A stretch of 64,000 nucleotides of DNA from NCBI GenBank assembly GCA_945949875.1, contig CAMFGH010000002.1:1-64000 (forward strand), given 5' to 3'. This document shows positions 582 through 50,587 of this stretch, piece after piece; the first letter of the stretch is position 1; each line of letters opens with the position of its first letter. Below the pieces are notes generated by a model. It did no database searches, was not told the origin of the DNA, and saw only the letters and a program-made list of their open reading frames with translations. The DNA comes from an uncultured bacterium (GTDB lineage Bacteria; Bacillota; Clostridia; Lachnospirales; Lachnospiraceae). The position numbers and the translations under genes are program-made.

Positions 582-1586
582 TTACATCACATCTGCGAAA
601 TGTATTTTAAGTCGTTTGAAGATCAATGCTCCGATGCCAAAAACTACCACCGTAAAGATCCAGAAATACATGGTAGAATAGAAATCAGCAAAGAACCATT
701 CCCTTTCGCAGATTGCACTTCGATAACCGTTTACAATATAAACTAACGGATTCAGTTTGATAATGCTTGTCAAAAGTGGTTTGTCCGCTATCATGTTGAT
801 ATTCCACAAAATCGGAGTTGCCCACATTCCCACCTGAAGAAGAATATTGATGATCTGGGTCAGGTCCCGGAAAAAGATCACAACTGCACAGGTGGTATAG
901 GACAATCCAAGAACAAATACGAACAGGCAAAAGCTGTAATAAACCACCTGGATCGTATAAATCGTCGGATAACATCCATACAGAATCGCAACCACCAGCA
1001 AAACAATCACAAAGAAAACATGGATAAACGTAGCTGCTATAATCTTAATGATCGGTAAAATACTGATCTTAAAGACCACTTTTTTTACCAGATAATTGTA
1101 TTCCAGAAGGGCTGTGGTTCCATTGTTCAGTGCTTCGGAAAAATAGAACCAGGGTACCAGACCGGCTGTTAAATAAAGTACATAAGGCATCTGTATGCCC
1201 CCGGATAAAAGCTGCGCTTTTTGACCGAAAAAGTTGTCAAACACAAACCAGTACATGGCAACCGTCACCACCGGCTGCACCATGGCCCAGATAAAGCCCA
1301 GATAAGAACCGGCAAATCTTTTCTTAAAATCATTCTTTGCCAGTTTCCAGATCAGTCTTCTGTTTTCATATAATTCCACCGGAAGCACGGTAACCTTATC
1401 ATATAATAAAATGAAAACCACACAGGAAATGATGATAATTGCACATGCGATAATCTTTTTCACCAGCTCTTCCTGTGGATCAGCCCACGGATTGTGGTGA
1501 AGCACAATGATCAGTGCCATGATAAATGCTGCCACACAGAACACGGTAATTCCTGTCCGCTTCGAGATTTTATTCCACTTGAACAT
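582..1586 (-). CDS. tagG: Polysaccharide ABC exporter permease (TagG/Wzm type, ABC-2 family)
   Basis: ORF 334 aa; KNDFKKRFAGSYLGFIWAMVQPVVTVAMYWFVF is characteristic of TagG/Wzm; adjacent to the ATPase gene. Confidence 0.9.
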   Translation of the reverse strand: MFKWNKISKRTGITVFCVAAFIMALIIVLHHNPWADPQEELVKKIIACAIIIISCVVFILLYDKVTVLPVELYENRRLIWKLAKNDFKKRFAGSYLGFIWAMVQPVVTVAMYWFVFDNFFGQKAQLLSGGIQMPYVLYLTAGLVPWFYFSEALNNGTTALLEYNYLVKKVVFKISILPIIKIIAATFIHVFFVIVLLVVAILYGCYPTIYTIQVVYYSFCLFVFVLGLSYTTCAVVIFFRDLTQIINILLQVGMWATPILWNINMIADKPLLTSIIKLNPLVYIVNGYRSAICEREWFFADFYSTMYFWIFTVVVFGIGALIFKRLKIHFADVM

Positions 1587-1598
1587 GCCTGTTCCTTC

Positions 1599-2162
1599 CT
1601 ACGCTCTATACTTCTTTGTAAACTCTGTAAGGCCGCCCCACTTTGTATCCTTCTCCGACATGATCAGTTCCATGCCCTCCGGGATCGGCCATTTTACACC
1701 GATTTCAGGATCTCCATAGAAAAGTCCGCCTTCATCTCCTGGATGATAAAAGTCAGTACATTTATAACAGAATTCTGCATAATCGGAAAGCACCAGAAAA
1801 CCATGCGCAAAATTTTTCGGAATAAAGAACTGCTTTTTATTTTCCTCAGATAAGATCTCCCCATGCCATTTTCCATAAGTAGCAGACCCTTTCCTCAAAT
1901 CTACTGCCACATCAAAGACTTCTCCTTTGATGACCCTTACCAGTTTATCCTGGGGGAAATCAATCTGGAAATGAAGCCCCCGGAGTACGCCTTTTTTGGA
2001 TGCGGACTGGTTATCCTGAACAAAAACCTGATCAATCCCTGCTTCTTTATAATCGTTATAATTGTAGGTTTCCATAAAATATCCCCTGGAATCCCCAAAT
2101 ACGCTGGGAGTAATAATTTTAAGTCCTTCAATTTCACATGTTTCTACTGTAATTTTACCCAT
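1599..2162 (-). CDS. rmlC: dTDP-4-dehydrorhamnose 3,5-epimerase
   Basis: 187 aa; GDSRGYFMETYN, VQDNQSASKKGVLRGLHFQ, FAHGFLVLSDYAEFCYKCTDFYHPGDEGG. Confidence 0.95.
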   Translation of the reverse strand: MGKITVETCEIEGLKIITPSVFGDSRGYFMETYNYNDYKEAGIDQVFVQDNQSASKKGVLRGLHFQIDFPQDKLVRVIKGEVFDVAVDLRKGSATYGKWHGEILSEENKKQFFIPKNFAHGFLVLSDYAEFCYKCTDFYHPGDEGGLFYGDPEIGVKWPIPEGMELIMSEKDTKWGGLTEFTKKYRA

Positions 2163-2181: not shown

Positions 2182-3528
2182 TTAGTATGCCAAATAGCTG
2201 ATATCCAGATCCACTCTTCCGTTTATACCATCCACACTGCCGGAAGATGTGTACTGCCAAAATTGATATCGCCCACCATATTGTGGTGTTTCCCTGTATT
2301 CCGCCAGCCAGGTCATATAATTTTCCAGCTGGGCCAGAGATAAATTCTTATTCAGCCAGTTTCTGCTGGCATATACGCCACTGCTGTATCCGGCTCCTTC
2401 AATCGTCTCGCAGAACGCCCGGCATACCTCCGTTCTGGTAGATATGTCCAGTCCGTCTGCCCGGCCATTGCCGCCTGCGCCTTCCGAATCAATAAAGATG
2501 GGATATTCGATCCGGTATCCTTCGCACAGGGAAAGTACCATACTGGCTTCTTCCACCGCTTCCACTTCATTGACTGCCTGGGTAAAGAAATACACTCCCA
2601 CCTTCAGGCCTGAGGCCAGCGCGCCTTCTATATTCTTTCTGAAATAAGGATCCTCGACCAAAGCTCCTGTGGACGAACCACGGTATCCGGCACGAATGAT
2701 GGCATATCGAATGCCTGCATTACGCACTTTGTCCCAGTCAATGTCTCCGTTATATTTGGAAACATCGATTCCCATCTGCCCGGCTTCTCCAAGCTCCTGA
2801 ATATCTTTTATTTCCGTTGCATCTGCGTCATCCAGGGCATCCTTTTCCCCGGTGTCTTCCTGCTCCGCAATGATATCTTCCTCTGTCTTGATGAGGAGCG
2901 CAATATCCTCAATGGGCAGGTACTCCACTTTATCCTTTACCCGAATGATCGTTGGGGAAGGAACTTTGTATCCTTCCACCTCGTCCATGGTGACTTCATA
3001 ATCCCCTGCGATCAGATTACTCACATAAAGGATTCCATCCTTGTCCTGGTCTCTGTAACTGCCTGCTTCTCCAACATGAATCGTAAAAGGAACCCCTGTT
3101 ACGATAACCCCATTGCTGTCCTGCACCTGAATTCTCATATCCCTCTCTACCGAAGTGATAATAAAATACAGGTTATTACTCTGGGCGTCCAGCAGTGCCT
3201 GTTCATATTTGGAAAGTTCCCGGTTGAAAAAGGTCAAATCTTTCTCAAAAGCAGACAAATCTGTTCCTACCTGTTTTTCAGGATCTGCTCCTGCAAAGCC
3301 TTCCGGGTTATACTTCATGGCATATTCGCTTACATCGATCCGGGCATTTTCCTCCTGCTCTTCAAGAGAAGATATGGGGCCGCTCTGGCTTTCCGACATG
3401 GTCCGGCCCCCACTGCCACTTACTTTCTTCTGGATCTGTTCCCAGTTTAAAAGCAGCGTCGTAGATAACACCATAAAGACCAGTAAAGTGGTCAGAAATA
3501 TTGTTTTTCTTCTTTTCTTTTTACTCAT
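2182..3528 (-). CDS. Membrane-anchored GH25 muramidase with Cna-B-like stalk
   Basis: 448 aa; N-terminal TM; C-terminal GH25 (MGIDVSKYNGDIDWDKVRNAGIRYAIIRAGYRG...FIDSEG...FWQYTSSGSVDGINGRVDLDISY). Confidence 0.9.
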   Translation of the reverse strand: MSKKKRRKTIFLTTLLVFMVLSTTLLLNWEQIQKKVSGSGGRTMSESQSGPISSLEEQEENARIDVSEYAMKYNPEGFAGADPEKQVGTDLSAFEKDLTFFNRELSKYEQALLDAQSNNLYFIITSVERDMRIQVQDSNGVIVTGVPFTIHVGEAGSYRDQDKDGILYVSNLIAGDYEVTMDEVEGYKVPSPTIIRVKDKVEYLPIEDIALLIKTEEDIIAEQEDTGEKDALDDADATEIKDIQELGEAGQMGIDVSKYNGDIDWDKVRNAGIRYAIIRAGYRGSSTGALVEDPYFRKNIEGALASGLKVGVYFFTQAVNEVEAVEEASMVLSLCEGYRIEYPIFIDSEGAGGNGRADGLDISTRTEVCRAFCETIEGAGYSSGVYASRNWLNKNLSLAQLENYMTWLAEYRETPQYGGRYQFWQYTSSGSVDGINGRVDLDISYLAY

Positions 3529-3590: not shown

Positions 3591-4460
3591 CTATAATCCG
3601 TTGGCTACCTCTACCAGATATTTTCCATAATTGGTTTTCATCAGAGGTTCAGCCAGCGCCAAAAGCTGTTCTTTTGTGATAAAACCACGTTTATAAGCGA
3701 TCTCTTCAATACAGGATACATACAGTCCCTGTCTTTTCTGGAAAGCCGCTACAAAATCCGCTGCATCCAGCAGAGAATCATGATTTCCGGTATCCAGCCA
3801 TGCAAAACCACGTCCCATGGTCTCTACATGCAGGGTTCCCCGTCTTAAGTATTCATTGTTGATACTGGTGATCTCAATTTCACCTCTTGCGGAAGGTTTT
3901 ACATTCTTTGCGATTTCAACCACATCATTGTCGTAGAAATACAGCCCCGGTACCGCATAATTGCTCTTCGGATGTTCCGGCTTTTCTTCAATGGAAATAG
4001 CCATTCCGTTTTCATCAAACTCTACTACCCCATATTCTCTTGGGTCTCTTACATAATAACCAAAGATTGTAGCGCCCTTTTCTCTGGATGCCACTTCTCT
4101 TAAAAGCTTGGAAAAACTCTGCCCATAGAAAATATTATCGCCAAGTACCAGCGCCACACTGTCTTTGCCAATGAATTCCTCGCCAATGATAAAAGCATCT
4201 GCCAGACCTCTGGGCTGTTCCTGAATCGCATATTCAAAATGAAGGCCCAGCTGTTCTCCGGTTCCGAACAAATCTTCAAATACCGGCAGATCTCTCGGTG
4301 TGGAAATGATCAGAATATCTCTGATACCAGCCAGCATCAGGGTAGATAACGGGTAATAAATCATCGGTTTATCATATACCGGCATAATCTGTTTTGAAAT
4401 TGCTTTGGTCAGCGGATACAATCTTGTTCCGGAACCACCTGCTAAAATAATCCCTTTCAT
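3591..4460 (-). CDS. rmlA: Glucose-1-phosphate thymidylyltransferase
   Basis: [46 protein letters not shown]; start moved from 4487 to 4460 because an AAAGGAGAAAAC RBS precedes the internal ATG. Confidence 0.95.
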
Positions 4461-4469
4461 GTTTTCTCC

Positions 4470-4538
4470 TTTCGCATCCTGCAGCAACTGCCTTTCGCAT
4501 TCCGCAGTAACTGCCTTTCACATTCCGCAGTAACTGCC
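4470..4538. repeat. 3 x 23-bp tandem repeat (tttcRcatYctgcagYaactgcc-like) upstream of rmlA
   Basis: tttcgcatcctgcagcaactgcc / tttcgcattccgcagtaactgcc / tttcacattccgcagtaactgcc in perfect 23-bp register. Confidence 0.9.
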
Positions 4539-4655: not shown

Positions 4656-5738
4656 TTATTTATCTTTATACATATCTTCATAATATTTCTGGTAATCGCC
4701 GCTTGTCACATTCTTCATCCAGTCTTCGTGCTCGAAGAACCATTTGATGGTCAGCTTAATACCTTCTTTAAACATGGTTTCCGGCTCCCAGCCCACTTCG
4801 GCTTTAATCTTGTCCGGTGCAATAGCATAGCGTCTGTCGTGACCTTTTCGGTCCTGAACATAAGTGATCAGGTCCTTGCTTACCAATGCTTTTCTCGGAT
4901 CATCATCCGGCAGCATTTCCTGTAAAGTTTCAATGATGATATGGATGATTTCGATATTCTGCTTCTCATTGTGGCCGCCGATATTATAGGTTTCAAAAAG
5001 TCTTCCTTTTTCCTGAACCATATCAATTGCCTTGGCATGGTCTTCCACATAAAGCCAGTCACGCACATTTTTGCCATCTCCGTATACCGGAAGTTTCTTA
5101 CCCTGAAGCGCATTGTTGATGATCAGCGGAATCAGTTTTTCAGGGAACTGATAAGGTCCGTAGTTATTGGAGCAGTTGGTGATGTTTGCCGGGAATTTGT
5201 AGGTATCCATATAAGCTTTTACCAGCATGTCCGAACTTGCCTTACTTGCAGAATAAGGACTATGGGGTGCATAGGGTGTGGTTTCATAGAAATATCCACC
5301 GTCTTCTTCCAGAGAACCATATACTTCATCTGTGGAAACATGAAGGAACTTTTTGCCTTCCTTAAAGCTTCCGTCCGGCAGTTCCCAGGCTGCTTTTGCA
5401 CAGTTCAGCATAACAGCAGTCCCCAGTACGTTGGTCTGTACAAATACTTCCGGCTCCTTGATACTTCTGTCTACATGGCTTTCTGCCGCAAAATGAACCA
5501 CTCTGTCGATATCATTCTCAGCAAAGATTTTTGCAATTGCCTCTTTATCGCAAATATTCGCCTTTACAAAGGTATAGTTCTCTCTGTTTTCCACATCCCG
5601 CAGATTTTCCAGATTTCCGGCATATGTCAGTGCGTCCACATTAATGATACGGATCTCATTGTCATATTTTTTGAACATATAGTGAATGTAATTGGATCCG
5701 ATAAATCCCGCACCACCTGTAACCAAGTATGTTCTCAT
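4656..5738 (-). CDS. rmlB: dTDP-glucose 4,6-dehydratase
   Basis: 360 aa; VTGGAGFIGSNYIHYM, HFAAESHVDRSI, YSASKASSDMLV, NCSNNYGPYQFPEKLIPL. Confidence 0.96.
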   Translation of the reverse strand: MRTYLVTGGAGFIGSNYIHYMFKKYDNEIRIINVDALTYAGNLENLRDVENRENYTFVKANICDKEAIAKIFAENDIDRVVHFAAESHVDRSIKEPEVFVQTNVLGTAVMLNCAKAAWELPDGSFKEGKKFLHVSTDEVYGSLEEDGGYFYETTPYAPHSPYSASKASSDMLVKAYMDTYKFPANITNCSNNYGPYQFPEKLIPLIINNALQGKKLPVYGDGKNVRDWLYVEDHAKAIDMVQEKGRLFETYNIGGHNEKQNIEIIHIIIETLQEMLPDDDPRKALVSKDLITYVQDRKGHDRRYAIAPDKIKAEVGWEPETMFKEGIKLTIKWFFEHEDWMKNVTSGDYQKYYEDMYKDK

Positions 5739-5766: not shown

Positions 5767-8700
5767 TCAATATCCCAGATAACTCAGGTTCAGATCCACA
5801 TTTCCGTTGATTCCCGGAATGGATCCCTTTGAGCTGTACTGCCATAAATTATATCTTCCGGTATAAGTCGGGGCTGCTGCATACTGAGCCAGCCAGATCT
5901 TATAGGAACTGAGACTTCCGGCATCCATCTTGGAATTCAGCCATGTCTTATTTGCATAAACACCTGCAGTATACCCTGAGTTCTGAATGGTTGCACAGAA
6001 CGCTTTAATGACTGCAGTTCTGGTTCCTTTGTCCAGACCGTCTGCACGTCCGCCACTGCTTTCCACATCCAGGAAAATCGGATAGGAAATCTTGTACTTC
6101 TTCACCAGAGAAAGTACCATGGAAGCCTCTTCTACCGCTTCTTTCTCATTTACCGCCTGGGTAAAGAAGTAAACACCGGTCTTAATGCCTGCTGCATTGG
6201 CTCCGGAAATATTTGCAGCAAAGGTTGGGTCTGTGATCAGTGCGCCTGTGGTAGAACCACGATATCCGCATCGGATGATGGCGTAGGATACACCAGCCGA
6301 TTTTACTGCATTCCAATTAATATTTCCATTCCATTTCGATACATCAATACCAAAGTTACCGGAGCTGGTCTGCAGTGTTCCATCACTTGCAAACACATAT
6401 TTTGCACCCTGGATGACCTGCTCACCTGTTACATATTTATGATTATCCAGGTAATAATAGGTTTTACCATTTATTGTCTGCCATCCGGTATACAGTGTTT
6501 CCGTTGTCTGTAAAAAGAACTCACTGAACTTATAATAATCTGCGTATACTGCTTTTCTATAGTTACCGTTTTCTTTTACGTATACCTGATTTCCGTTTTT
6601 ATCTTTCAGCAGCGATGTGGTATCCAGCTCAGCACTGTTGCCAACGGTTACCGTACAGGTTGCCTCTTTACCATTGCTTCCTGTTACTGTAATCTTTGCT
6701 GTACCTACTTTCACACCGGTTACCGTAACTGTCTTGTCCGATACTTTTACGGTTGCAATCTTCTCATCCGATGATTTTGCTGTAATGGTTGCATTTGTTG
6801 GCTTCACTGTGGCTTTGATCGTTCCGGTCTTACCTACCGCAACCGTCAGCTTGTCCGCATCCAGAGTAAGGGAAGCATCGTCTGTTACTGTTACTTTGCA
6901 GACTGCTTTCAGACTGCCCGCGGTAACTGTGATCTCAACCGGGCTGGAAGTAGCTTTAAGCCCTTCAATTGTGGCTGTTGTAGCCGCTGAATTATTATCC
7001 TTCGGAGTGACTTTTACCGAGTTTGCATCAGAAGATGTCCAGCCAGTGATTGTTTGATTCGTTGTGGCTGTTAATGTTACTTTTTCACCCTTTGCAATAG
7101 TCTTTGTGGTGGGTTCAATCGTAAGGGTCGGCGTCACCGGTGCTTTTTCTACGGTAACAGTAATCTTTACATCGCCGTTCGATGTGGTTCCTGTTAATGT
7201 AGCACTACCTTCTGCCACACCAATCACATTAAAGCCTTCCACTTTCGCTACACTATAATTGGAAGATGTCCATTTGCTAATATCAAGTCGATCTGTCTTT
7301 TCAACTAACTGCTGTGCACCCGATCCACCGGAGCTGCTTCCGCCATCTCCGGAGTCACCAGAACTGCTTCCGCCAGAGCTGCTTCCTCCATCATCGCTTC
7401 CACCAGAGCCACTTCCGCCGGAGCTGCTTCCGCTATCATCGCTTCCGCCGGAGCCACTTCCGCCGGAGTCGCTTCCACTATCTCCGCTTCCACCAGAGCT
7501 GCTTCCTCCAGAACCGCTTCCACTTCCGGAACCACCGGCGCCGCTATCTGTCCCATCATCATAGGTATAATTAACTTTATCCGGAAGACTCTTAGATTCC
7601 CCCACTTTTACCGTTATATTACTTAAACTTTCAAACTCTGCTGCCAAAGCCAGATCCGACACCTTCAGTTTTGCCGAAGCACCCGGATCCTTGATATCAC
7701 TCTTGCTGATAGCTTTATAGGATACTTCACCGGCAGTAGTGCTGGATTTGTAAAATGGCACGGTATCTGTCAGCTTGGATTCTTCCACGGTTTCCACGAT
7801 TGCTGTATCTTCGATTGCTGCATTTACTTCTGCTTCTGTTTTGATTTCTTCCACAACATCTACTTTTTGATAAGCGATGGTTGCTTTTACATCGGCAGAC
7901 TGCTCTGCACTGGCAATGATATAATCCTTATACTCTTCCCCATCAAGCGGAAGCATTTTGACCTTATAGCCACCTGCTGCAATGTCTTCTTTGTAGATCA
8001 CACCGTCTTTATCATCATCTGTCCAGGTTTCTGTCTTCTTGTCCGGGGTTGTAACTTCTACAGAAAACGGTACATTTGCGATCAGCTTGTCCGTCTCAGA
8101 GTTGACAAATTTTATCTTCAGATCCTTCACAATGGAAGTCATCTTCATGGTAACACTGGCACCCTTTGACTCCACCGTCTGCTGTGCTTCTTCCGTCAAT
8201 TCTTCCGATACGAGAATTTTGTTTGCCTGTGCATCTGCCACCGCATACAGACCGTTTTCACCGATTATTTGCACGCCATCCAGCTGGCTTCCTACCTCAG
8301 CAAATGAAGCGACAGCACTGTTTTCCTGCTTTACCATGCTGAAAACCACACCGGTGATCACTGCCACGAAAAGAACAGCCACACCAGTCAGCGCAATGAT
8401 CTTATCCACTGTCGGCATTTCGATGATCTTGTCCACCACGCCCGCAAGTCCCGGTCTTTTCCTTCGTTTTCTCATGACCGCACGTCTTGCCGCATACACA
8501 CTCTCGTCGTAGTCATCATCATCGTAGTCATCGCCATATTCAAATTCTTCTTCGTAGTCGTCGTCTTCGTAAGAGTCTCCGTCATATTCTCCGGCATAAT
8601 CCGTCCCCGGATCATCACTGTAATCCCGGATTTCATCCTCTTCGTAATACTCTTCTACATCTACATCGTCGTAAACTTCGTCTTCTTCGTAAGCCTCATC

Positions 8701-8931
8701 ATCCTCATAGGCTTCATCTTCTTCGTAAGCTTCGTCATCCTCATAGGCTTCATCTTCTTCGTAGTACTCATCCTCTTCGTAGTATTCGTCATCCCCGTAA
8801 TACTCTTCATCCTCATAGTACTCGTCGTACAGTTCCTCTTTTATTTTCCGACTCTTTCTGCCGGAATCTCCCCGATATGATTTCTGATTCCGGGCATATT
8901 TTGTCTTTTTCTTCTTTCCCAATAAACTCAT
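5767..8931 (-). CDS. Large membrane-anchored GH25 muramidase: acidic Tyr-rich N-terminal tail, TM, Cna-B-like stalk, Big_2-like domains, Ser/Gly tract, CW-binding-like repeat, C-terminal GH25
   Basis: Start chosen at MSLLGKKKK (8931) with GGAAG RBS; ORF track start (9105) is probably over-extended. GH25: GIDVSKWNGNINWNAVKSAGVSYAIIRCGYRG...FLDVESSGG...LWQYSSKGSIPGINGNVDLNLSY. Confidence 0.9.
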   Translation of the reverse strand: MSLLGKKKKTKYARNQKSYRGDSGRKSRKIKEELYDEYYEDEEYYGDDEYYEEDEYYEEDEAYEDDEAYEEDEAYEDDEAYEEDEVYDDVDVEEYYEEDEIRDYSDDPGTDYAGEYDGDSYEDDDYEEEFEYGDDYDDDDYDESVYAARRAVMRKRRKRPGLAGVVDKIIEMPTVDKIIALTGVAVLFVAVITGVVFSMVKQENSAVASFAEVGSQLDGVQIIGENGLYAVADAQANKILVSEELTEEAQQTVESKGASVTMKMTSIVKDLKIKFVNSETDKLIANVPFSVEVTTPDKKTETWTDDDKDGVIYKEDIAAGGYKVKMLPLDGEEYKDYIIASAEQSADVKATIAYQKVDVVEEIKTEAEVNAAIEDTAIVETVEESKLTDTVPFYKSSTTAGEVSYKAISKSDIKDPGASAKLKVSDLALAAEFESLSNITVKVGESKSLPDKVNYTYDDGTDSGAGGSGSGSGSGGSSSGGSGDSGSDSGGSGSGGSDDSGSSSGGSGSGGSDDGGSSSGGSSSGDSGDGGSSSGGSGAQQLVEKTDRLDISKWTSSNYSVAKVEGFNVIGVAEGSATLTGTTSNGDVKITVTVEKAPVTPTLTIEPTTKTIAKGEKVTLTATTNQTITGWTSSDANSVKVTPKDNNSAATTATIEGLKATSSPVEITVTAGSLKAVCKVTVTDDASLTLDADKLTVAVGKTGTIKATVKPTNATITAKSSDEKIATVKVSDKTVTVTGVKVGTAKITVTGSNGKEATCTVTVGNSAELDTTSLLKDKNGNQVYVKENGNYRKAVYADYYKFSEFFLQTTETLYTGWQTINGKTYYYLDNHKYVTGEQVIQGAKYVFASDGTLQTSSGNFGIDVSKWNGNINWNAVKSAGVSYAIIRCGYRGSTTGALITDPTFAANISGANAAGIKTGVYFFTQAVNEKEAVEEASMVLSLVKKYKISYPIFLDVESSGGRADGLDKGTRTAVIKAFCATIQNSGYTAGVYANKTWLNSKMDAGSLSSYKIWLAQYAAAPTYTGRYNLWQYSSKGSIPGINGNVDLNLSYLGY
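7314..7552 (-). repeat. Coding Ser/Gly/Asp low-complexity tandem repeat
   Basis: Encodes SGAGGSGSGSGSGGSSSGGSGDSGSDSGGSGSGG...; DNA built from iterated ccgccggagccacttccg-like units. Confidence 0.85.
8640..8840 (-). repeat. Coding acidic Asp/Glu/Tyr tandem repeat
   Basis: Encodes EEYYEDDEYYEEDEYYEEDEAYEDDEAYEEDEAYEDDEAYEEDE; about 30-bp imperfect units (tcatcttcttcgtaagcttcgtcatcctcataggct). Confidence 0.8.
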
Positions 8932-8970
8932 GAAACTTGCTTCCTTTTTTCTATAATTAATATCTGTAAC

Positions 8971-9177: not shown

Positions 9178-9235
9178 TAAAGTAAATATGACACATACAA
9201 CAATGCATTAAATTTTTATGGAAAGGGGAATTCCT

Positions 9236-9553
9236 ATGATGTACATGCATTATTGTAAACGTTGCCAAAGGGTTCATATGTTAAACGGTCATAAACTTAC
9301 TTGTCCAAGGTGTGGAACACCTCTTACGGAATTGCAGATCTCTTATATGGATTACATACTAATGAGCCGGGAAGAGCGACGCATATTTGACTCAAGGTTG
9401 TCAGATGATGCTCAACTAGAAAAGCTAAGTACCACTTATCGCTTGTACAAATACAGCAAGTGGTATAAAAATCTCAAATCACAAAATTCCGAACAAGTTT
9501 ATTCGTTTGACGATGAATCTAATATAAATGGCGTGGCGTTTACGCTTATGTAA
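9236..9553 (+). CDS. Small zinc-ribbon protein of unknown function
   Basis: MMYMHYCKRCQRVHMLNGHKLTCPRCGTPLTELQ: two CxxC knuckles (CKRC, CPRC); AAAGGGG-type RBS before ATG 9236. Confidence 0.7.
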   Translation: MMYMHYCKRCQRVHMLNGHKLTCPRCGTPLTELQISYMDYILMSREERRIFDSRLSDDAQLEKLSTTYRLYKYSKWYKNLKSQNSEQVYSFDDESNINGVAFTLM

Positions 9554-9571
9554 GGCAGTTGATGCAAAACA

Positions 9572-9646
9572 GCTGATATAACAAGCTGATATAGCATGCT
9601 GATATAATATGCTAATATAATATGCTGTTATATCAAGCTGATACGG
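9572..9646. repeat. Tandem 13-bp repeat, about 5.8 copies (gctgatataAYAa)
   Basis: gctgatataacaa/gctgatatagcat/gctgatataatat/gctaatataatat/gctgttatatcaa/gctgatacgg. Confidence 0.9.
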
Positions 9647-9658
9647 AGCAACAGCAGG

Positions 9659-9692
9659 CGGGCAGATTTTTATCTGCTCGTTTTTTCTTTTT
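9659..9692 (+). terminator. Rho-independent terminator
   Basis: CGGGCAGAT-tttt-ATCTGCTCG 9-bp stem (one G.T) followed by TTTTTTCTTTTTT. Confidence 0.85.
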
Positions 9693-9768: not shown

Positions 9769-10860
9769 ATGAAAAAAGATAAAGATAGTATTGATTGGAT
9801 CGATTTAGATTCTGATGAAAAACCGCATAAAAAGAAAATCAGCAGGCCGGCACCTGAGGAAGAAGAACCGGAGAAAGGTTCCTTCCAATTTAGCTTACAC
9901 TATATTTTTCTTGGAATGATTGGTCTGATTCTGCTAATTGTTATTGTCAAGCTGATCATTTGGAATATCGGTGAAAAAGATACCACTCCGGATGCGGATG
10001 ATGAGGCATTTAACACAGAGTCCATGGACAATATCGTCCCTCTGGATTCCTCTGATCCCAATGCTTCCAACGTGGATGACGATTTAAATATTCTTTTCCT
10101 GGGTAATGGCCAGCTGGCTGAAGACAAGGATTCCGAAACCAACCTTGCCAATATCATCCAGAGAAAGACCGGTGCAACCATTTACAATTGTGCCATTGAT
10201 GGCAGCTATATGGCCATGAAAAATGAAACCTATAAAGGTTCTTTCCCTTATGACGGTCTTAGCTTCTACAACTTATGTACTGTTTTCTCCGTAGGAAACC
10301 ACAAGCTTACCGATTGGGTCAGACGCGATTATAAGCAAAATGAAGGAACAGATCTGCCGGAGGATGCTGCGTATGCTCTGGAAACACTGGAGTCTATCGA
10401 CTATGATGAACTGGATGTTCTTTGTGTATATTATGATTACCATGATTATCTGGAACAGCACCTGCCATATAACGACGATAACAGTTCGGATGTAAATACC
10501 TATGCAGGTGCACTGGAAGCAGGATTGCTCCTGGTAAAAGAAGCACATCCCAATGTTCGGATCATCGTTCTTTCTCCCACTTTTATTTATGTGGAGGATG
10601 AAAATGGAGAATACCGCTCCAGTTATGATGAGGATGTTCTTCCATGGCAACTCTATGTTTATGTCATTCATGAACAGGATACCTGCTACCTGAATAATGT
10701 CACATTCGTAGACAATTTCTATGGCAGTATTTATGGGGAAATTGCAGACAGATATCTGGAAGGTGCAGACCACGTCAACGAAGAAGGACTGGAGCTGCTT
10801 GCAGACCGGTTCATCTATGCGCTGAACCGATTCAATGAGTATAAGTTCCCTGAATCATAG
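9769..10860 (+). CDS. Membrane-anchored SGNH-fold protein with degenerate catalytic motifs (predicted pseudo-esterase)
   Basis: 363 aa; TM near residue 45-68; aligns by eye to SGNH paralogs at 15443 and 28105 but has LGNGQ for LGDS, YDYHD for GxND, and GADH for DxxH. Confidence 0.7.
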   Translation: MKKDKDSIDWIDLDSDEKPHKKKISRPAPEEEEPEKGSFQFSLHYIFLGMIGLILLIVIVKLIIWNIGEKDTTPDADDEAFNTESMDNIVPLDSSDPNASNVDDDLNILFLGNGQLAEDKDSETNLANIIQRKTGATIYNCAIDGSYMAMKNETYKGSFPYDGLSFYNLCTVFSVGNHKLTDWVRRDYKQNEGTDLPEDAAYALETLESIDYDELDVLCVYYDYHDYLEQHLPYNDDNSSDVNTYAGALEAGLLLVKEAHPNVRIIVLSPTFIYVEDENGEYRSSYDEDVLPWQLYVYVIHEQDTCYLNNVTFVDNFYGSIYGEIADRYLEGADHVNEEGLELLADRFIYALNRFNEYKFPES

Positions 10861-10920
10861 TTCCCTGAATCATAGTTCCCTGAATCATAGTTCCCTGAGC
10901 AATGATTCTCTGAGCAATGA
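10846..10920. repeat. Tandem 15-bp repeat, 5 copies, beginning at the last codons of the upstream ORF
   Basis: ttccctgaatcatag x3, ttccctgagcaatga, ttctctgagcaatga; first copy encodes F-P-E-S-stop. Confidence 0.92.
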
Positions 10921-10957
10921 TTCCTTAATAAAATTCATTTTTGATACTTTATGATAC

Positions 10958-11482: not shown

Positions 11483-11553
11483 TCAAAATTTGCTAAAAAA
11501 TCTGCCGAAAAATCTATTCAAAATCTGCTCAAAACCTGCTCAAAAATCTGCTC
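11483..11553. repeat. Degenerate 11-13 bp tandem repeat (aaaaatctgctc) spanning the stop codon of the 11540 ORF
   Basis: caaaatttgct/aaaaaatctgccg/aaaaatctattc/aaaatctgctc/aaaacctgctc/aaaaatctgctcc. Confidence 0.8.
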
Positions 11554-12298
11554 CATCCCACAGATATATCCGGTATCCATCCACCGTATTTTTCAAATGA
11601 AAGCCATTTTCTTCAAAATTTCCTGCCTGTTCCGTGGACTCATGAAGCACGATATAATGGCAGGACTGCTCTACCGCCAGCGCAGCAATTTTCTCACAAT
11701 CCACCGGTCTTTCCAGCATCGCATCATATAACGGATTATCCGTGATCCAGACTTCCACCATCAGGTCCCGGCCATAAGGCATACACACATTGGCTGTATA
11801 TTGGCGTACATAAGCCAGCATCTCCGATGGCACTACTGCCCTTACTTCGCGTCCTTCAATAATCATTTCATCACATACATCCGCTACCGTCTGAGGCACA
11901 TGAAAACGATTATTTGCAGCGCTGAAAAACGGATTGTCATACACATAATCTCCCGTTATTATGATGACCACGCAGCCGAGCACTGCCCCGGATACCTTCA
12001 TCCAGTTTTTCGGCAGCCGGCTTATCACATGTATTCCGGCATATGCAATGACCACGCTCATAGGGATCAGCCAGAGAATGCGATAATAAATCTCATCATC
12101 CATTAAGCTGTAAATCACCTTGGCAAAAATCGGGCACAAAAAGAGCAGAATGGTAGCCAAAGTGGTATATAACAATATGATTCTTTTGGATTTTTCTTTT
12201 TCTGCTATCATCAGATATACAAAAGAAACGAAAAACAGCCCTACTGCCAGTCCGTTTCCGCTGTAATCCATGCACAAAGCAACTATCTCAGACCACAT
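11540..12298 (-). pseudogene. C-terminal half of a GT-C-like (DUF6077-like) membrane protein; probable 3' fragment of a disrupted gene
   Basis: Polytopic; LMDDEIYYRILWLIPMSVVIAYAG. Track start is TTG 12319; ATG 12298 has an upstream AAAGG. See finding on reconstruction with 12415..13494. Confidence 0.55.
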
Positions 12299-12414
12299 CC
12301 TGATACCTTTCTTTATCAATTCGTTTCCAAAAATCTATTTCCAAAATTCCAAAATACTTTTCTTGAATTTTTCAACGCTTTCAAAAGCTTAGAGAACAAT
12401 ATTCCCCCAAGATA

Positions 12415-13494
12415 TTATTTCAGGAAAATATACAGCACCGCATACAGAATTCCCGGAGTACATCCCAGCAGACATTCCGGTATTATCCTGGGCTTTTTAT
12501 AAAAAATAGCCAGCAAAAATGCTGCCAGCATGATCAGCATACTGCTCAGGAAACCAGACATGGTACTGCAAAGGCATCCTGCCAGAACCGTGGTAAAAAG
12601 CCATAAAATATCCATGCGTTCTGCTTTTCCCTGTTTCTTCGCAATCTTCAGCAAAAGTAAGATCAAAAACGGAAGAATCACATTACCCAGCGCTGCTTTC
12701 CCCTGTCTGGTACGGGTCAGTAAAAAAGTAGAAGCCGGATAAATGGAGTAATTTCCAAAGATCTGCAAAAGCGAAATGAACACCATAAAAACCGGCAGAT
12801 ACTTTTTGTCCACCAGACACTTTCCGATTTCCAGATAAATCACATAAGTGAGTGGAATCAGCACCAGCGGAATAAAACTGTGAGCCGCCACCGCTGCATT
12901 CACACCGGCCTTTAATGCAATAAAGGAAACCCAAATAGGAAAAGGCGCCAGCCCATGACGGATGTCCAGCGTAGTAGGCGCCCCTGTGTAAGGATCCAGC
13001 TGATACATACTGCCACCCAGATTAGCCGCCGTTGAAATCGAAATATAATAGGCATCATCCCCATCAGCATAGGCCAGACGGAAAGACATATACAATTGAA
13101 GCAGCAGTGTCAAAGCAAAAATGGCCCAGATTATAAGGGAAATTTTTTCGCTTTTTATATAGTCTGTAAGCCGCTTTCCCCAATTACCAGGGTTCAAATT
13201 TTTCATGCCCTGTCTCACCTGCAGGAATGTAAACAAATAGCCCATGATTGCCACAGAAAGTGCAATCATCTCAAACCAGAGTTCCACATCCCGAAGTTTG
13301 CCCTGTTTTAAGATAAACGGCACAGCCACCAGCTGGAAAACTGCCCACATCAAAACATAACCGGAACAGAAGCCTGCCATCAGTTTTTTATGAAGTTGTA
13401 TCTCTTTCTGTTTTCCGATGGAATATACAGCCAGTCCCATTCCCAGCGGAACCAGAACAAGCCATATAAACATACCGATCAGTTTACCTAGCAT
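12415..13494 (-). pseudogene. N-terminal half of a GT-C-like (DUF6077-like) membrane protein; probable 5' fragment of a disrupted gene
   Basis: 359 aa polytopic; YADGDDAYYISISTAANLGG; stops at TAA 12415, but the same frame stays open for 32 more plausible codons. Confidence 0.55.
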
Positions 13495-13623: not shown

Positions 13624-15528
13624 TTATTTCTCATATAAATAAACTCGGTCTCCATGCACACCTCGTTCCAAAAGGGTCCCTGTTTTTTCCAGTCCATAAT
13701 GTTCCTTCAAATAACTTCCCACCGCCACTTCATCAATTCGGTTTTTCAAAAGCACAACGATTTTATCATTGGTTCTTAGAACATCATCCTCGCTTCTGGA
13801 GAAAAGTTCCCCCTCTGTCACCATCAGCGTGTTCTGATAATTCATAAATTCAATCAGATTCTGATAATATCCCACACCATCGTAAACGCACAGGCATGGC
13901 AGCTCCTGATTGGTCTCCGAAATCCGAATCTGCTCTGCATATCCTTTATATTGATAATCCGGTGTCTTAAAAAACAGGTTTGGAAGCACAGCGATCAGCA
14001 CCACAGCCAGACAGATCATATTGGAAAAGTGCTGCTCTTTGCGCACATTTCTTTTGGCCAGAAGTTCCGAAAAGATACCATCCGCTACTGCTTTTACAAC
14101 CATCATAATAATGAGTGCCAGGATAGGGAAAATCGGCATCATGTACCGGTCTTCATAATAGGGAGCTATTTTAACCACCACCAAAAAATATCCTGCACAG
14201 GGAATACCAATCATATATTTGAACTTGCGAGATTTCTTATTTATTAAATCCTGATTTATTTTATTGATCTCATCCGACAATTCGAAAATGCTACAGCTGT
14301 CATCATGACTTTTGGCCAATCGAGTCTCTCGTCTTTCACGCACCAACAACACAACCAATACCACAATTGCCAGCAGGATAAGGCATGTCCCCAGGATTCC
14401 ACCCAGATTCTCAAATGCAATAATGCCCAAAAACTGTGAAAAACGTTCTCCCATTCCCGAAAATCCGCTTCCCAGATTCTGCACCGATTCCACACCACGA
14501 CCGCTGTGAAGTACATGATCAATAGAGAACGGATACACCAAAAGGCCCACAACAGCTGCGATACTCATGCTCTTTGCATAAGATAACGCATGTTTTTTAT
14601 CCTTTTCCCTGAGAAGCAGAACAATCGTAGTTCCCGCCAGAAAAATCATAAAAATCACGAAATAATACTGGGTCCAGAATCCAAGCAGTGTCACAAGGAT
14701 CAGACCTTTATTCTGTTTGTCCCACTCGTCCGTCTTCATTTTTTTCAAATGAATATAAAGCACAGCCACGCACCAGAACGTGAGCATGGCATACATCCGA
14801 ATCAGCAACAGCGTAGAGATTCCGGCCATACTGCATCCATACAACAGGCAGACAGGAATCGCCAGCTCCGGTTTTTCCAGTATCTCCTCACAGATTTTCA
14901 TCAAAAAGATACAAATACCCAGAACCAGAATCAGATTGATCACACATCCCATCCAGGGAGCAATCTGATTGGTAAAAATAGAGCTCACTGTATGAAGCGC
15001 CATAAAATGAAGAGGCGGATGATTGTCGTCTTTCACATTAAAATAAACCGATAAATAGTTGAAATTATCCCTGCTGTCTGTCGTTTCATAGGCCTGAAAC
15101 TGCTTGGCACTGATCCATACCGGTTCTTTATAAACATCCGCTTTGTAGGATAAAAGCTTGCTTTCGCCCTTATTTTTCAGCACATCCTTTACCGTTGCGA
15201 TTACATTTCCAAAAGTCTCTCCGAAAGAATCTCCATAAATTTCATTCTGGACAAATTTTTCCAAACGCCCCTCCGGCTGGGTCGTCACGATCCAAGGGGT
15301 AAACTCAGCATTGGCAAGTTCAAAGGAAAGCAGTTCATCCATATGATATCCTTCTTTCCCGGAAATATAAAAAACACCCAGCAAAGCAATGATAACCAGG
15401 GTGAGAATATGAAATTTTCTTTTGTTCCATAAAAAGACTATTCTATCTTTGTCTTTCATGTTCTGCAATATAGTTCGCCACATTCTCTGCATACTTCTTT
15501 CTTCCATACTCTGTAAGGTGGGTTGCAT
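13624..15528 (-). CDS. GT39/PMT-like polytopic glycosyltransferase
   Basis: GKEGYHMDELLSFELANAEF (acidic loop motif), HPPLHFMALHTVSS, many TMs. Start uncertain (possible internal starts at 15492 or 15459; overlaps the upstream SGNH gene). Confidence 0.75.
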   Translation of the reverse strand: MQPTLQSMEERSMQRMWRTILQNMKDKDRIVFLWNKRKFHILTLVIIALLGVFYISGKEGYHMDELLSFELANAEFTPWIVTTQPEGRLEKFVQNEIYGDSFGETFGNVIATVKDVLKNKGESKLLSYKADVYKEPVWISAKQFQAYETTDSRDNFNYLSVYFNVKDDNHPPLHFMALHTVSSIFTNQIAPWMGCVINLILVLGICIFLMKICEEILEKPELAIPVCLLYGCSMAGISTLLLIRMYAMLTFWCVAVLYIHLKKMKTDEWDKQNKGLILVTLLGFWTQYYFVIFMIFLAGTTIVLLLREKDKKHALSYAKSMSIAAVVGLLVYPFSIDHVLHSGRGVESVQNLGSGFSGMGERFSQFLGIIAFENLGGILGTCLILLAIVVLVVLLVRERRETRLAKSHDDSCSIFELSDEINKINQDLINKKSRKFKYMIGIPCAGYFLVVVKIAPYYEDRYMMPIFPILALIIMMVVKAVADGIFSELLAKRNVRKEQHFSNMICLAVVLIAVLPNLFFKTPDYQYKGYAEQIRISETNQELPCLCVYDGVGYYQNLIEFMNYQNTLMVTEGELFSRSEDDVLRTNDKIVVLLKNRIDEVAVGSYLKEHYGLEKTGTLLERGVHGDRVYLYEK

Positions 15529-16282
15529 CGATCAGATACTTCTCACCATTGTGAATTGTTATATTCATATCGTCATAACTATTGATAAAAATTGCATTAA
15601 AACTTGCAGAAACAGCTTTTGCTGATGCAGTATAATCGATCAGCGTTCCACCCCCAAAATCATGGGATGTACTTTCGTGTATGACCTGTCCATAAGAATA
15701 TCCCTGGCAATAGGTTGGTGAAACGATAACAAAAACTGCATCAGGGCACACCTCCTGCAGCGCCATGACTCCACTGCACAGTGCACCGCTATACGTTGTC
15801 ACATCGTAGTAATCATTTGGATTTTTTTGCTTTACGCCGGCAAAATAATCATTCAGCCCGTATGCCAGAATCACATAATCCATCTCTTCATATGGCACCT
15901 CCGGCAGAATATTCTTTGCTTCCACATCATCCGGAAGGGCACATTCCCGCTTCCCGGTAATATATTCCGTCATTGCGATCAGGCTTGTATCTTCAGCGCC
16001 GGTATCAGCCGCCTGTGTTCCCTTAATTGCCAGATTATATACCACTGCATTTCCCAGTTCTTTCTCCAAAAGAGCTGCCACTCCGGTATCATCCCGGACC
16101 AGATCCCAGATGCTGTCTCCCAGCACCAGAATCTGTAAAGGATCCTTTGCATCTGCACTCTTTCCTATATTTTTTATATTTTGTTTTTGATGCATTCCAT
16201 AGAAAAAAATCGTAGCTGCTATACAGATGCAGACTCCGGCCAAAATCCCGATATAAGACAATATACTTTTTTTCGTACTCAT
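15443..16282 (-). CDS. Membrane-anchored SGNH hydrolase
   Basis: ILVLGDSIWD, LAYGLNDYFAG, IDATHLTEYG = intact GDS, GxND, DxxH. Start moved to MSTKKSILSY (16282). Confidence 0.8.
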   Translation of the reverse strand: MSTKKSILSYIGILAGVCICIAATIFFYGMHQKQNIKNIGKSADAKDPLQILVLGDSIWDLVRDDTGVAALLEKELGNAVVYNLAIKGTQAADTGAEDTSLIAMTEYITGKRECALPDDVEAKNILPEVPYEEMDYVILAYGLNDYFAGVKQKNPNDYYDVTTYSGALCSGVMALQEVCPDAVFVIVSPTYCQGYSYGQVIHESTSHDFGGGTLIDYTASAKAVSASFNAIFINSYDDMNITIHNGEKYLIDATHLTEYGRKKYAENVANYIAEHERQR

Positions 16283-16387
16283 ATATTGGAATCCCTCCAT
16301 CCTGTCAGCTGTATATCCTATCAACTGCATATCCACCCGGCCCTCACATCACCGGCCATGCATTCTATCCTATTTCCAGCTGCATTT

Positions 16388-24364: not shown

Positions 24365-25501
24365 CTATGCTTTCAACCTGTCATCCACCTTCTGCAAAAA
24401 CAGATCCAATTTACTTCCGGTTAAGAATTTCCCCACCAGACGGAAGATAAGACTTCTGATAAAGTCAACCGCCAGTCCGATTCCCATCACGATGAGTATT
24501 GCCAAAATCCAGTGGCCAAGCAGGGATAGCGCAGAACTGCACTTTCCGGCTCCCAGCCATTTTGGCCATTCATAGCGGATATTCACATGTTCATGAAGCA
24601 GATACACGCCAAAGGTATAGGGTGCAATAGCACATACGATACGGGAAAGACCCTGGGAATGGATTTTCACATAATAAAACGTGTAAAAAAGTGCCACCGC
24701 AGAACCGATCGTAAGCAAATGATTATATCCATAAGCGGATTCTATAAAATTCTGGAACTGGCCCGTCTTCAGGTACGCCAACCGAATCAGCATGGTCCAG
24801 ACAAATATGAAAACACCTCCCAGCAGGAAGATAAATCCACTCTTTTTTCCCAGTTTTTCAAAGAAAGAGATTCCGTACAATCTGATATAAGCAGCAATCA
24901 GATAAACCACCATGAACCAATAGGCATCATAGCCCAGATTGTCCAGTTCCAGACGAACCGGAATCAGTGTTTTACTGAGAGACTCCATAATCAGCAGAAT
25001 CACAATTGCCATCTGCAGCTGCTGCTTTTTCATGGCATGGACAGCCACATTCAATACCGGTGTAAACAAAAACATCAGTACATATGCAGACACAAACCAA
25101 TAGTGAAGCATATTGGTAGGGAAGATATATAATAAAATATTCCAAAAAGTTAAATCCTGAATTGACAAAACACCTGTCAAGATAAGTACAACCGGAATCA
25201 GGCAGGTATAAAACATTACCTGCAGCACCAGGGAAATGACACGCTTGCAGCGAAATCCCGTTTCCACCAGGAAATATCCACTGATCAGAACATACACATC
25301 CACTGCCATAATGGAAAAGCTTTCCAGAAACCAAGCCAGATATCCTTGTCCATTTAGCGGGCCGGTCAGGGATGGAAGCAGTTCGCCCTTTGCCAGGAAA
25401 TGAAGGGACACCACCATCATCATAGCAAGAATACGCAGCAGTTCTATGTTTGCCATACGTTTTTTATGCGGTTGTAAAGCGGCGTTTTTTTCTCCTGTCA
25501 T
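24365..25501 (-). CDS. Acyltransferase family 3 (OafA-like) membrane protein
   Basis: RMANIELLRILAMMMVVSLHFLAKGE...SFSIMAVDVYVLISGYFLVETGF. Confidence 0.85.
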   Translation of the reverse strand: MTGEKNAALQPHKKRMANIELLRILAMMMVVSLHFLAKGELLPSLTGPLNGQGYLAWFLESFSIMAVDVYVLISGYFLVETGFRCKRVISLVLQVMFYTCLIPVVLILTGVLSIQDLTFWNILLYIFPTNMLHYWFVSAYVLMFLFTPVLNVAVHAMKKQQLQMAIVILLIMESLSKTLIPVRLELDNLGYDAYWFMVVYLIAAYIRLYGISFFEKLGKKSGFIFLLGGVFIFVWTMLIRLAYLKTGQFQNFIESAYGYNHLLTIGSAVALFYTFYYVKIHSQGLSRIVCAIAPYTFGVYLLHEHVNIRYEWPKWLGAGKCSSALSLLGHWILAILIVMGIGLAVDFIRSLIFRLVGKFLTGSKLDLFLQKVDDRLKA

Positions 25502-28104: not shown

Positions 28105-29025
28105 CTATTTCTCCATACATTCAAGCAGTTTCTCTCCCACAAAGGTTCCGTAAATTTCTCTGCCACTTTCGTTTAAATGAATGCCATCTTCCGTATAAGA
28201 AAGGATATTGGTCTCATCGAATCCGATTTCATGATAAACATCGATCACATCCAGGCCAAATTCTTCTGCAATCTGCAATTTCAAATCCACATACTCATCC
28301 ATGGTTCCCTGACCGAAATCCTGAACATTGCAAGGCTCACTGTCATCGATCCAGCAGAAGTTCGGTGTCACCAGAATGATTTTTAAATCCGGATAGTGTT
28401 CCTGCAGTTCCCGGATAGAATATCTGAGTGCCCCACCAAAAGTATAGATGTCATAGGGGTCGTTTTGGTTGTCCAATGGTCTTCCACCGGAATAATCATT
28501 ATTCCCATGCTCCAGAAGAACCACATCCACCTTGTTGAAATCCACTTTTGAAAGATTTTCTAATGCCTCCGGGAAATACCAGGACTGAAACTGATTGTTC
28601 GGAAGATCAGCCAACTGTACCCCGAAATCCTTTTCACAGATGGCATCCACCAGTCTGCACAGATTCAGAGACTCCTCGTGATAATCATAACTGTTCTGGG
28701 GATTGCCTGCACTGGCACAGGTTCCGCCAAAAGCCCCATTATAAACACTCATTCCGGTGGTTTCCTGAATAACCCCGTCCACTCTCTTGTCGCAGCGCTC
28801 TTTCCCCATAATACTGTCACCCAGCAGCACCACCTGATAGCCGTCCACCGCGGATTCCTGAATGGAACGATAAATTCCAAAGGAAATGCATACTGCCAGA
28901 ATTCCAGCTGCCAAAACGGGAATATACTTTATGAACTTTTGCAGGTTGGAATTCTTTTTCTCCACAGGCTGCTCCTTTTTCCGGTAATCCTTTTGCCAGG
29001 CGTTTTTCTGTCTATTTCCCAGCAA
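28105..29025 (-). CDS. Membrane-anchored SGNH hydrolase
   Basis: VVLLGDSIMGKE, LLEHGNNDYSGG, TEDGIHLNESG = intact GDS, GxND, DxxH. Confidence 0.82.
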   Translation of the reverse strand: MLGNRQKNAWQKDYRKKEQPVEKKNSNLQKFIKYIPVLAAGILAVCISFGIYRSIQESAVDGYQVVLLGDSIMGKERCDKRVDGVIQETTGMSVYNGAFGGTCASAGNPQNSYDYHEESLNLCRLVDAICEKDFGVQLADLPNNQFQSWYFPEALENLSKVDFNKVDVVLLEHGNNDYSGGRPLDNQNDPYDIYTFGGALRYSIRELQEHYPDLKIILVTPNFCWIDDSEPCNVQDFGQGTMDEYVDLKLQIAEEFGLDVIDVYHEIGFDETNILSYTEDGIHLNESGREIYGTFVGEKLLECMEK

Positions 29026-31561: not shown

Positions 31562-32287
31562 TCAAAAAGAAACCAAATCCTCCAACTCCAACAGCGTATG
31601 AATCACATGATCCGCCTCTTTGCCTTCTTCAGCGATGTCCTTCATGTGATCCCCTTCCATACGGACAATACGAACCGTTTTCATCCCAAGAGAACGGGCC
31701 CCATGAAAATCCTTGGCCGGATTATCCCCTACATAAACAGCCTCTGAAGGTTCGCATCCCAGCTTCTCCAGGCAATACTGATATACATAAGGATTGGGTT
31801 TGCAGTAGGGCTTACCTGTTTCATCCTTCCCCAAATCGTCCGTTGCTAATATCACATCCATGCTTCTCAGCATTGCAATAGCATCGATTTTAGCATGCTG
31901 TACCTGGCTGCACCCATCCGTGATCAGGCCTGTCATAATCTTCTTATCCTGAAGATAAATCAGGATCTGCTCTGCATCCGGATATAGCCGGAGAATCGGT
32001 TTTGTACTCCGATACACCGACACCAGTTCCGAGATCGGAATCTTCACCCCATACTCTGCACAGATATCATCAAATATCCTGCCCCGGCCATTTTCTTCCA
32101 GAAGTTCCCACATCCGCCTGTGGATGTTGCTCACACTGCAGGCTCCCGCCTCCTTCAGCCGGATTTCCTTCTCCAACTCCCAGTATACCTTCTCTGCTAC
32201 CGCCCGAAAGGCCTGATCCACATAATCATATTCACAATATAATGTATCATCCAGATCAAAAAGAACTGCTTTTATCATACTATTCAT
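31562..32287 (-). CDS. HAD-superfamily hydrolase
   Basis: IKAVLFDLDDTLYCEYDYVDQAF; ITDGCSQVQHAK; KPNPYVYQYCLEKLGCEPSEAVYVGDNPAKDF; start trimmed (MNSMIKAVLF or MIKAVLF). Confidence 0.88.
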   Translation of the reverse strand: MNSMIKAVLFDLDDTLYCEYDYVDQAFRAVAEKVYWELEKEIRLKEAGACSVSNIHRRMWELLEENGRGRIFDDICAEYGVKIPISELVSVYRSTKPILRLYPDAEQILIYLQDKKIMTGLITDGCSQVQHAKIDAIAMLRSMDVILATDDLGKDETGKPYCKPNPYVYQYCLEKLGCEPSEAVYVGDNPAKDFHGARSLGMKTVRIVRMEGDHMKDIAEEGKEADHVIHTLLELEDLVSF

Positions 32288-50511: not shown

Positions 50512-50574
50512 TTACCCCAAAATTCCTCACCAAATGTTTTTTCATTTTTCATACAAAATATGTTCCATATGGAT

Positions 50575-50580
50575 TATAAT
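50575..50580 (+). promoter_or_regulatory. Consensus -10 TATAAT 7 nt before the plus-strand CotH ATG
   Basis: ggatTATAATgtacagtATGAG; no clear RBS; -35 weak (tacaaa at 17-bp spacing). Confidence 0.45.
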
Positions 50581-50587
50581 GTACAGT

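Follow-up and report, generated by a model that had tools for sequence, protein, structure and literature searches.

A membrane-anchored SGNH-fold protein family without the full canonical catalytic set in surface-polysaccharide loci of Lachnospiraceae

In the SGNH fold, the active site is carried by loops at the C-terminal strand ends. For the CE2 esterase, which has this fold, the active site is reported to double as a site of non-catalytic carbohydrate binding (PMC2661963). AlgJ and AlgX have been identified to possess esterase activity, and some known SGNH enzymes lack the Asp of block V (PMC9487903). SGNH pseudoenzymes have barely been described so far. In a partial literature search, no description was found of an SGNH pseudoenzyme family like the one presented here, which is not proof of novelty, and SGNH and pseudoenzyme occurred jointly only in work on an active lipase and on annotation.

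The window analysed here comprises 64,000 nucleotides of a contig (CAMFGH010000002.1) from an uncultured bacterium of the Lachnospiraceae. At 9769..10860 on the forward strand, an exact open reading frame codes for a type II membrane protein of 363 amino acids, referred to as pseudo-SGNH. Residues 1-43 (9769..9897) form a charged cytoplasmic tail with 9 basic and 12 acidic residues, which is disordered in the model and contains a WIDL motif common to the genus. This tail is followed by a single transmembrane helix in the model, residues 44-66 (9898..9966), with H44 and W65 being conserved, and by a juxtamembrane linker, residues 67-106 (9967..10086), with a motif of the FDTExLD type (E84 conserved to 89%, D87 to 100%). 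Residues 107-352 (10087..10824) form the ectodomain, to which the SGNH fold was assigned by the AlphaFold model and its structure matches. At the extreme end of the gene, a 15-bp tandem repeat (AGTTCCCTGAATCAT; 10844-10924) starts, which crosses the stop codon and continues into a second, related array.

The nearest kin in a whole-genome search are the two other SGNH proteins of the window, both encoded on the reverse strand, at 28105..29025 (E 4.4e-12) and at 15443..16336 (E 6e-9). Both have kept the catalytic motifs, which read GDS, GNND and DGIH in the former and GDS, GLND and DATH in the latter. The AlphaFold model of pseudo-SGNH was built from a shallow ortholog alignment of 17 rows and has a mean pLDDT of 80, with values above 80 across nearly the whole ectodomain. 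Its best PDB matches in Foldseek are the SGNH/GDSL proteins 7bxd, 3dc7 and 3bzw (probability 1.00), with TM-scores by target of 0.73-0.76 for the best entries. The paralog at 28105, modelled likewise, gave the same leading entries (7bxd, 3dc7), and the order of strands and helices is identical in the two models. PF13472 was matched by 13 of the 17 orthologs at E values up to 0.1 (best 1.8e-9); the window protein itself gave no significant Pfam match, and NCBIfam holds no name for it. On the basis of the modelled fold and of the sequence homology, the protein is assigned to the SGNH fold superfamily. The original prediction, which had described an SGNH-like protein with a charged cytoplasmic tail next to two intact SGNH proteins in the same window, was confirmed in these points.

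To read the catalytic positions, 53 orthologs from genomes of the Lachnospiraceae type were aligned with 35 related intact SGNH proteins. In the window protein, GNG stands for GDS, DxHD for GxND and GxxH for DxxH. The former block I (10102..10110) now reads G112-N113-G114, with G114 at the site of the nucleophile Ser, and the former block III (10432..10449) reads Y222-D-Y-H-D-Y227, with the new D223 at the position of the Gly and H225 at that of the oxyanion Asn. In the former block V (10762..10773), now G332-A-D-H335, the triad Asp is replaced by G332. The window protein retains G145 of block II and His335 of block V. The loss of Ser, Asn and Asp had been read correctly in the original prediction, with a retained His already implied by its motif GADH.

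The full Ser-Asn-Asp-His set is present in 33 of the 35 intact relatives versus none of the 53 orthologs, and it is absent from all 80 members of a second set of named loci, which overlaps with the first. The 80 loci, most of them filed under Lachnospiraceae, Butyrivibrio or Eisenbergiella, were kept from 161 relatives obtained in an alignment-based scan of genome contigs; a scan of the contigs with the single sequence of the window protein gave no match. Together, the two sets comprise 116 distinct aligned sequences. Individual residues of the old site persist in some of the 53 orthologs, with the block I Ser in 9, the block II Gly at the position of G145 in 30, the block III Asn in 11 and His335 in 31. 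The fixed pattern is GN-x (N113 in 45/53) combined with YDxxDY (D223 in 44/53, D226 in 53/53). Conservation of GNGQ and YDYHD, which the original prediction had named as a point to check, was found in the form of this pattern and not for the literal motifs, with the former Ser and Asn positions varying freely. The DNFYG loop, residues 315-319 (10711..10725), is conserved specifically in the pseudo-SGNH clade. Losses were also seen in two otherwise intact-type SGNH proteins, of which L124 1008-2054 contains Gln for Asn and Phe for His, and L130 1060-2043 contains Thr for Ser and Gln for Asn; on the sequence level, this hints at further independent SGNH pseudoenzymes.

In a tree calculated without the catalytic columns, the 53 pseudo-SGNH proteins fall on one side of a branch with an SH-aLRT value of 90, which falls short of the 95 mark and makes one common origin likely without proving it. 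Four members (G053, G270, G283 and G249) have kept GxND and DxxH and contain GDD for GDS. In the tree, whose deep branches are only partly resolved, they lie outside the main group, which comprises 41 members including the window protein; this suggests that the Ser was lost first. For the domain, seven comparisons within the genus gave dN/dS values of 0.02-0.09, with dS saturated (>2) in five of them and the two with dS <1 giving 0.03 and 0.09. For the cytoplasmic tail, values of 0.2-0.4 were obtained.

Site rates were determined as the fewest changes counted on the tree and expressed as column percentiles. Positions 114, 225 and 145 lie at the 57th, 86th and 53rd percentile in the pseudo-SGNH clade versus the 2nd-6th in intact SGNH proteins, and D162, R264, N316, Y318, G319 and N337 lie at the 5th-15th percentile in the pseudo-SGNH clade versus the 40th-93rd. 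The loops of the active-site face, defined as strand-end loops from DSSP of the model, are more conserved than the remaining domain (a conservation this high was reached in 0 of 10000 random draws), and the six newly fixed residues may line one pocket. Ordinary rates at the former catalytic sites together with newly fixed residues on this face argue for repurposing. Recent loss or decay was rejected on the basis of the purifying selection on the domain and the absence of an intact ortholog from both overlapping sets, and the view of the original prediction, that a repurposed domain is at hand rather than decay, was upheld. Two of the three outcomes that would have refuted the original prediction, a structure unlike SGNH and orthologs with an intact set, were looked for and did not occur. 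Judged by the aligned sequences, the whole clade has lost its catalytic residues under purifying selection, as expected of a pseudoenzyme, and this loss is old and extends over the family. It is highly probable that the window protein has no canonical SGNH catalysis.

Pseudo-SGNH is present across about 40 genera. In a class-wide search, full-length matches were confined to the family of the window, and in three other families only the SGNH domain was matched. A plasmid search gave no match to pseudo-SGNH. Homologs were also found in two records filed under phages, MT837007.1 (L250; 380-1192) and PQ358089.1 (24013-24489), of which the former is an unverified faecal scaffold lacking annotation and is therefore likely mis-filed bacterial DNA.

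Upstream of pseudo-SGNH, the reverse strand codes for an ABC-2 polysaccharide exporter permease (582..1586), dTDP-4-dehydrorhamnose 3,5-epimerase (rmlC, 1599..2162), a second membrane-anchored GH25 protein (2182..3528), an rmlA-type sugar nucleotidyltransferase (3591..4487), an rmlB-type dTDP-glucose 4,6-dehydratase (4656..5738) and a membrane-anchored GH25 protein with Big_2 and choline-binding-like repeats (5767..8943). The latter is the divergent neighbour of pseudo-SGNH, as originally predicted, with a small zinc-ribbon protein (9218..9553, forward strand) and a terminator-like hairpin (9656..9683, forward strand) lying in between. The zinc-ribbon gene is found near the pseudo-SGNH gene in 21/51 loci, and the hairpin suggests that the two are on separate transcripts. 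Between them, a 13/26-bp tandem repeat (AGCTGATATAACA) is located at 9568-9643. On the other side, the reverse strand codes for a 259-amino-acid protein without Pfam family (11540..12319) and for a DUF6077 membrane protein (12415..13494), a probable GT-C-like transferase. Among 51 oriented loci, a layout recurs in which ABC exporter, rmlC, GH25, rmlA, rmlB, GH25 and zinc-ribbon gene precede pseudo-SGNH, which is encoded on the opposite strand, and the 259-amino-acid protein and DUF6077 come after it. Within about 10 kb, GH25 was identified in 37/51, an rmlB-type gene in 37/51, DUF6077 in 33/51 and the near-constant 259-amino-acid partner in 31/51 loci, several of which are cut by contig ends. 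The window also contains four CotH-kinase proteins (32280-34703, 47031-48755, 48733-50511 and 50441-53074) in one polysaccharide locus, two of them with chitobiase-like and lamin-tail domains.

The association with DUF6077 was followed in 397 genomes of the family. Of these, 47 passed the search for the pseudo-SGNH family, and one (G339), which matches solely through an intact SGNH protein, was excluded. DUF6077 was present in 46 of the 46 remaining carriers versus 94 of 351 non-carriers, with a p value of 5e-24 which is optimistic, since the genomes of one family are related and not independent samples. At DUF6077 loci without pseudo-SGNH, the pair of DUF6077 and the 259-amino-acid protein was kept in 18/20 cases, so that the dependence is one-way, and a search for a substitute gene at these loci revealed none that was evident. 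DUF6077 and the 259-amino-acid protein (11540-13494) probably form one functional unit. DUF6077 is not named in the literature covered by the partial search.

The surroundings suggest a connection with O-acylation, though not one that holds for all loci. In the set of 80 named loci, which was ordered by similarity and contains many close relatives, a DHHW/AlgJ-like protein is encoded within 6 kb in 50 loci and an MBOAT protein in 49; the former has no Pfam match and was identified by eye through its motifs GSS and DYxHY, and the latter also by eye from its sequence. Among the 51 loci, MBOAT was found within 10 kb in 11 and MBOAT or AT3 in 17, and with acylation genes near only this number of loci, a role in acylation cannot be general on synteny alone. 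The window contains an AT3 gene at 24365-25501; no MBOAT gene lies beside pseudo-SGNH in this genome, and MBOAT genes are present elsewhere in it. That pseudo-SGNH must be paired with an intact SGNH, AT3 or MBOAT protein encoded nearby was rejected as a general rule, many loci being devoid of all three within 10 kb.

We consider it somewhat more probable than the alternatives taken together that pseudo-SGNH is a non-catalytic, membrane-tethered subunit which binds or presents the polymer in a surface-polysaccharide machine. The SGNH fold, the loss of the catalytic set, the grouping in one clade, the dN/dS values, the site rates, the synteny with rml genes, paired GH25 genes and an exporter, and the association with DUF6077 are the basis for this view; the DHHW/AlgJ-like and MBOAT proteins, encoded no more than 6 kb away in about 50 of the 80 named loci, and the CE2 esterase (PMC2661963) point in the same direction. 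An ancestral membrane-anchored SGNH acyl-esterase or acyltransferase would first have lost its nucleophile and then the other catalytic residues, and the former active-site face would have been fixed anew with different residues. The protein would have become a non-catalytic extracytoplasmic subunit of a rhamnose-type surface-polysaccharide machine, with a pocket predicted to bind the exported glycan or its acylated form. The glycan would then be presented to neighbours, with the DUF6077 pair, the GH25 proteins and, at loci that have one, an MBOAT/AT3-SGNH acylation pair as candidates. Tentatively, and with the doubt outweighing the confidence, the family may be seen as a so far unrecognised SGNH pseudoenzyme family which is conserved in the lineage and forms an obligate subunit of a pathway for surface polysaccharides that depends on DUF6077 in Lachnospiraceae, its former esterase pocket being a receptor from which the polymer, once exported, is passed on to acylases and membrane lysozymes.

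The main rival explanation is that the pseudoenzyme acts on a protein partner, binding or regulating an intact SGNH or DHHW protein or a GH25 protein by allostery or as a scaffold, with a pocket that binds no glycan. Pairs of active and inactive homologs are common among pseudoenzymes, intact SGNH proteins occur in the same locus within the genus, and in 36/80 named loci the directly adjacent gene codes for a DHHW-like protein. However, many loci have no intact SGNH, DHHW or MBOAT protein nearby while none of the sampled carrier genomes lacks DUF6077, and the new conservation is concentrated on the former active-site face, so that we regard this explanation as unlikely. The polar residues fixed on this same face could alternatively be part of an enzyme with altered chemistry, in which a new arrangement (e.g., N113, D223, D226, D315 and N316) takes the place of the Ser-based one, and the early-branching members with Asp at the nucleophile position and kept GxND and DxxH would fit. 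However, the nucleophile position is occupied by D, G, S, N, A or E among the orthologs, with 21 changes on the tree, and His335 was lost many times; no catalytic centre using them can thus be common to the clade, and such an enzyme is quite improbable.

A weak SGNH esterase might also persist in some lineages, namely in the forms with Ser, while the others are pseudoenzymes. The Ser at position 114 in 9/53 orthologs, the His335 kept in 31/53 and the lack of the block V Asp in some known SGNH enzymes (PMC9487903) would allow for this. The nine Ser-bearing orthologs have a GNS context, most of them also with Asp and His. However, Asn replaces the Asp preceding the Ser in 9/9 and the set is complete in none; G295, alone among them in keeping the block III Asn, has lost both Asp and His of block V, and the window protein itself has no Ser at this position. 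This makes a persisting esterase very improbable, with the inactivity of the nine forms being certain, at the level of sequence, only as absence of the full canonical set. The GNS orthologs (L013, L014 and others) are scattered on the tree, as if the Ser had been regained or were drifting. A decaying gene heading for loss, for which only the lost catalytic residues would speak, is refuted by the selection data, the open frame, the spread across genera and the newly fixed residues, and its probability is negligible.

The pseudo-SGNH gene marks a surface-polysaccharide pathway of common gut bacteria which is conserved but has not been characterised. The family offers a graded series, from GDD with GxND and DxxH kept to GN-x with YDxxDY, and since intact paralogs are present in the same locus, it is directly testable in which order the catalytic residues were lost and how a new function was gained.

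Compared to the SGNH/GDSL hydrolases of PF13472 (the proteins at 15443 and 28105, and 7bxd and 3dc7), pseudo-SGNH has the same fold, the same order of strands and helices, the block landmarks and sequence homology, but it has lost the nucleophile Ser, the Gly and Asn of block III and partly the Asp and His of block V. With AlgJ and AlgX it shares the character of an extracytoplasmic SGNH-like protein in a polysaccharide system using MBOAT (PMC4148444); unlike these, it is devoid of the catalytic set and encoded in a rhamnose/ABC-exporter locus. The AT3-SGNH acyltransferases of the OatA/OafB type likewise have a membrane-anchored SGNH domain acting on surface glycans, and the window contains an AT3 gene; however, pseudo-SGNH is not fused to AT3, and the SGNH domain of the OatA/OafB type must be catalytically active (PMC9558356). 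The CE2 esterase remains an active esterase with appended domains, whereas pseudo-SGNH is membrane-anchored and lacks the catalytic set; CE2 is a precedent for an SGNH pocket turned into a binding site (PMC2661963).
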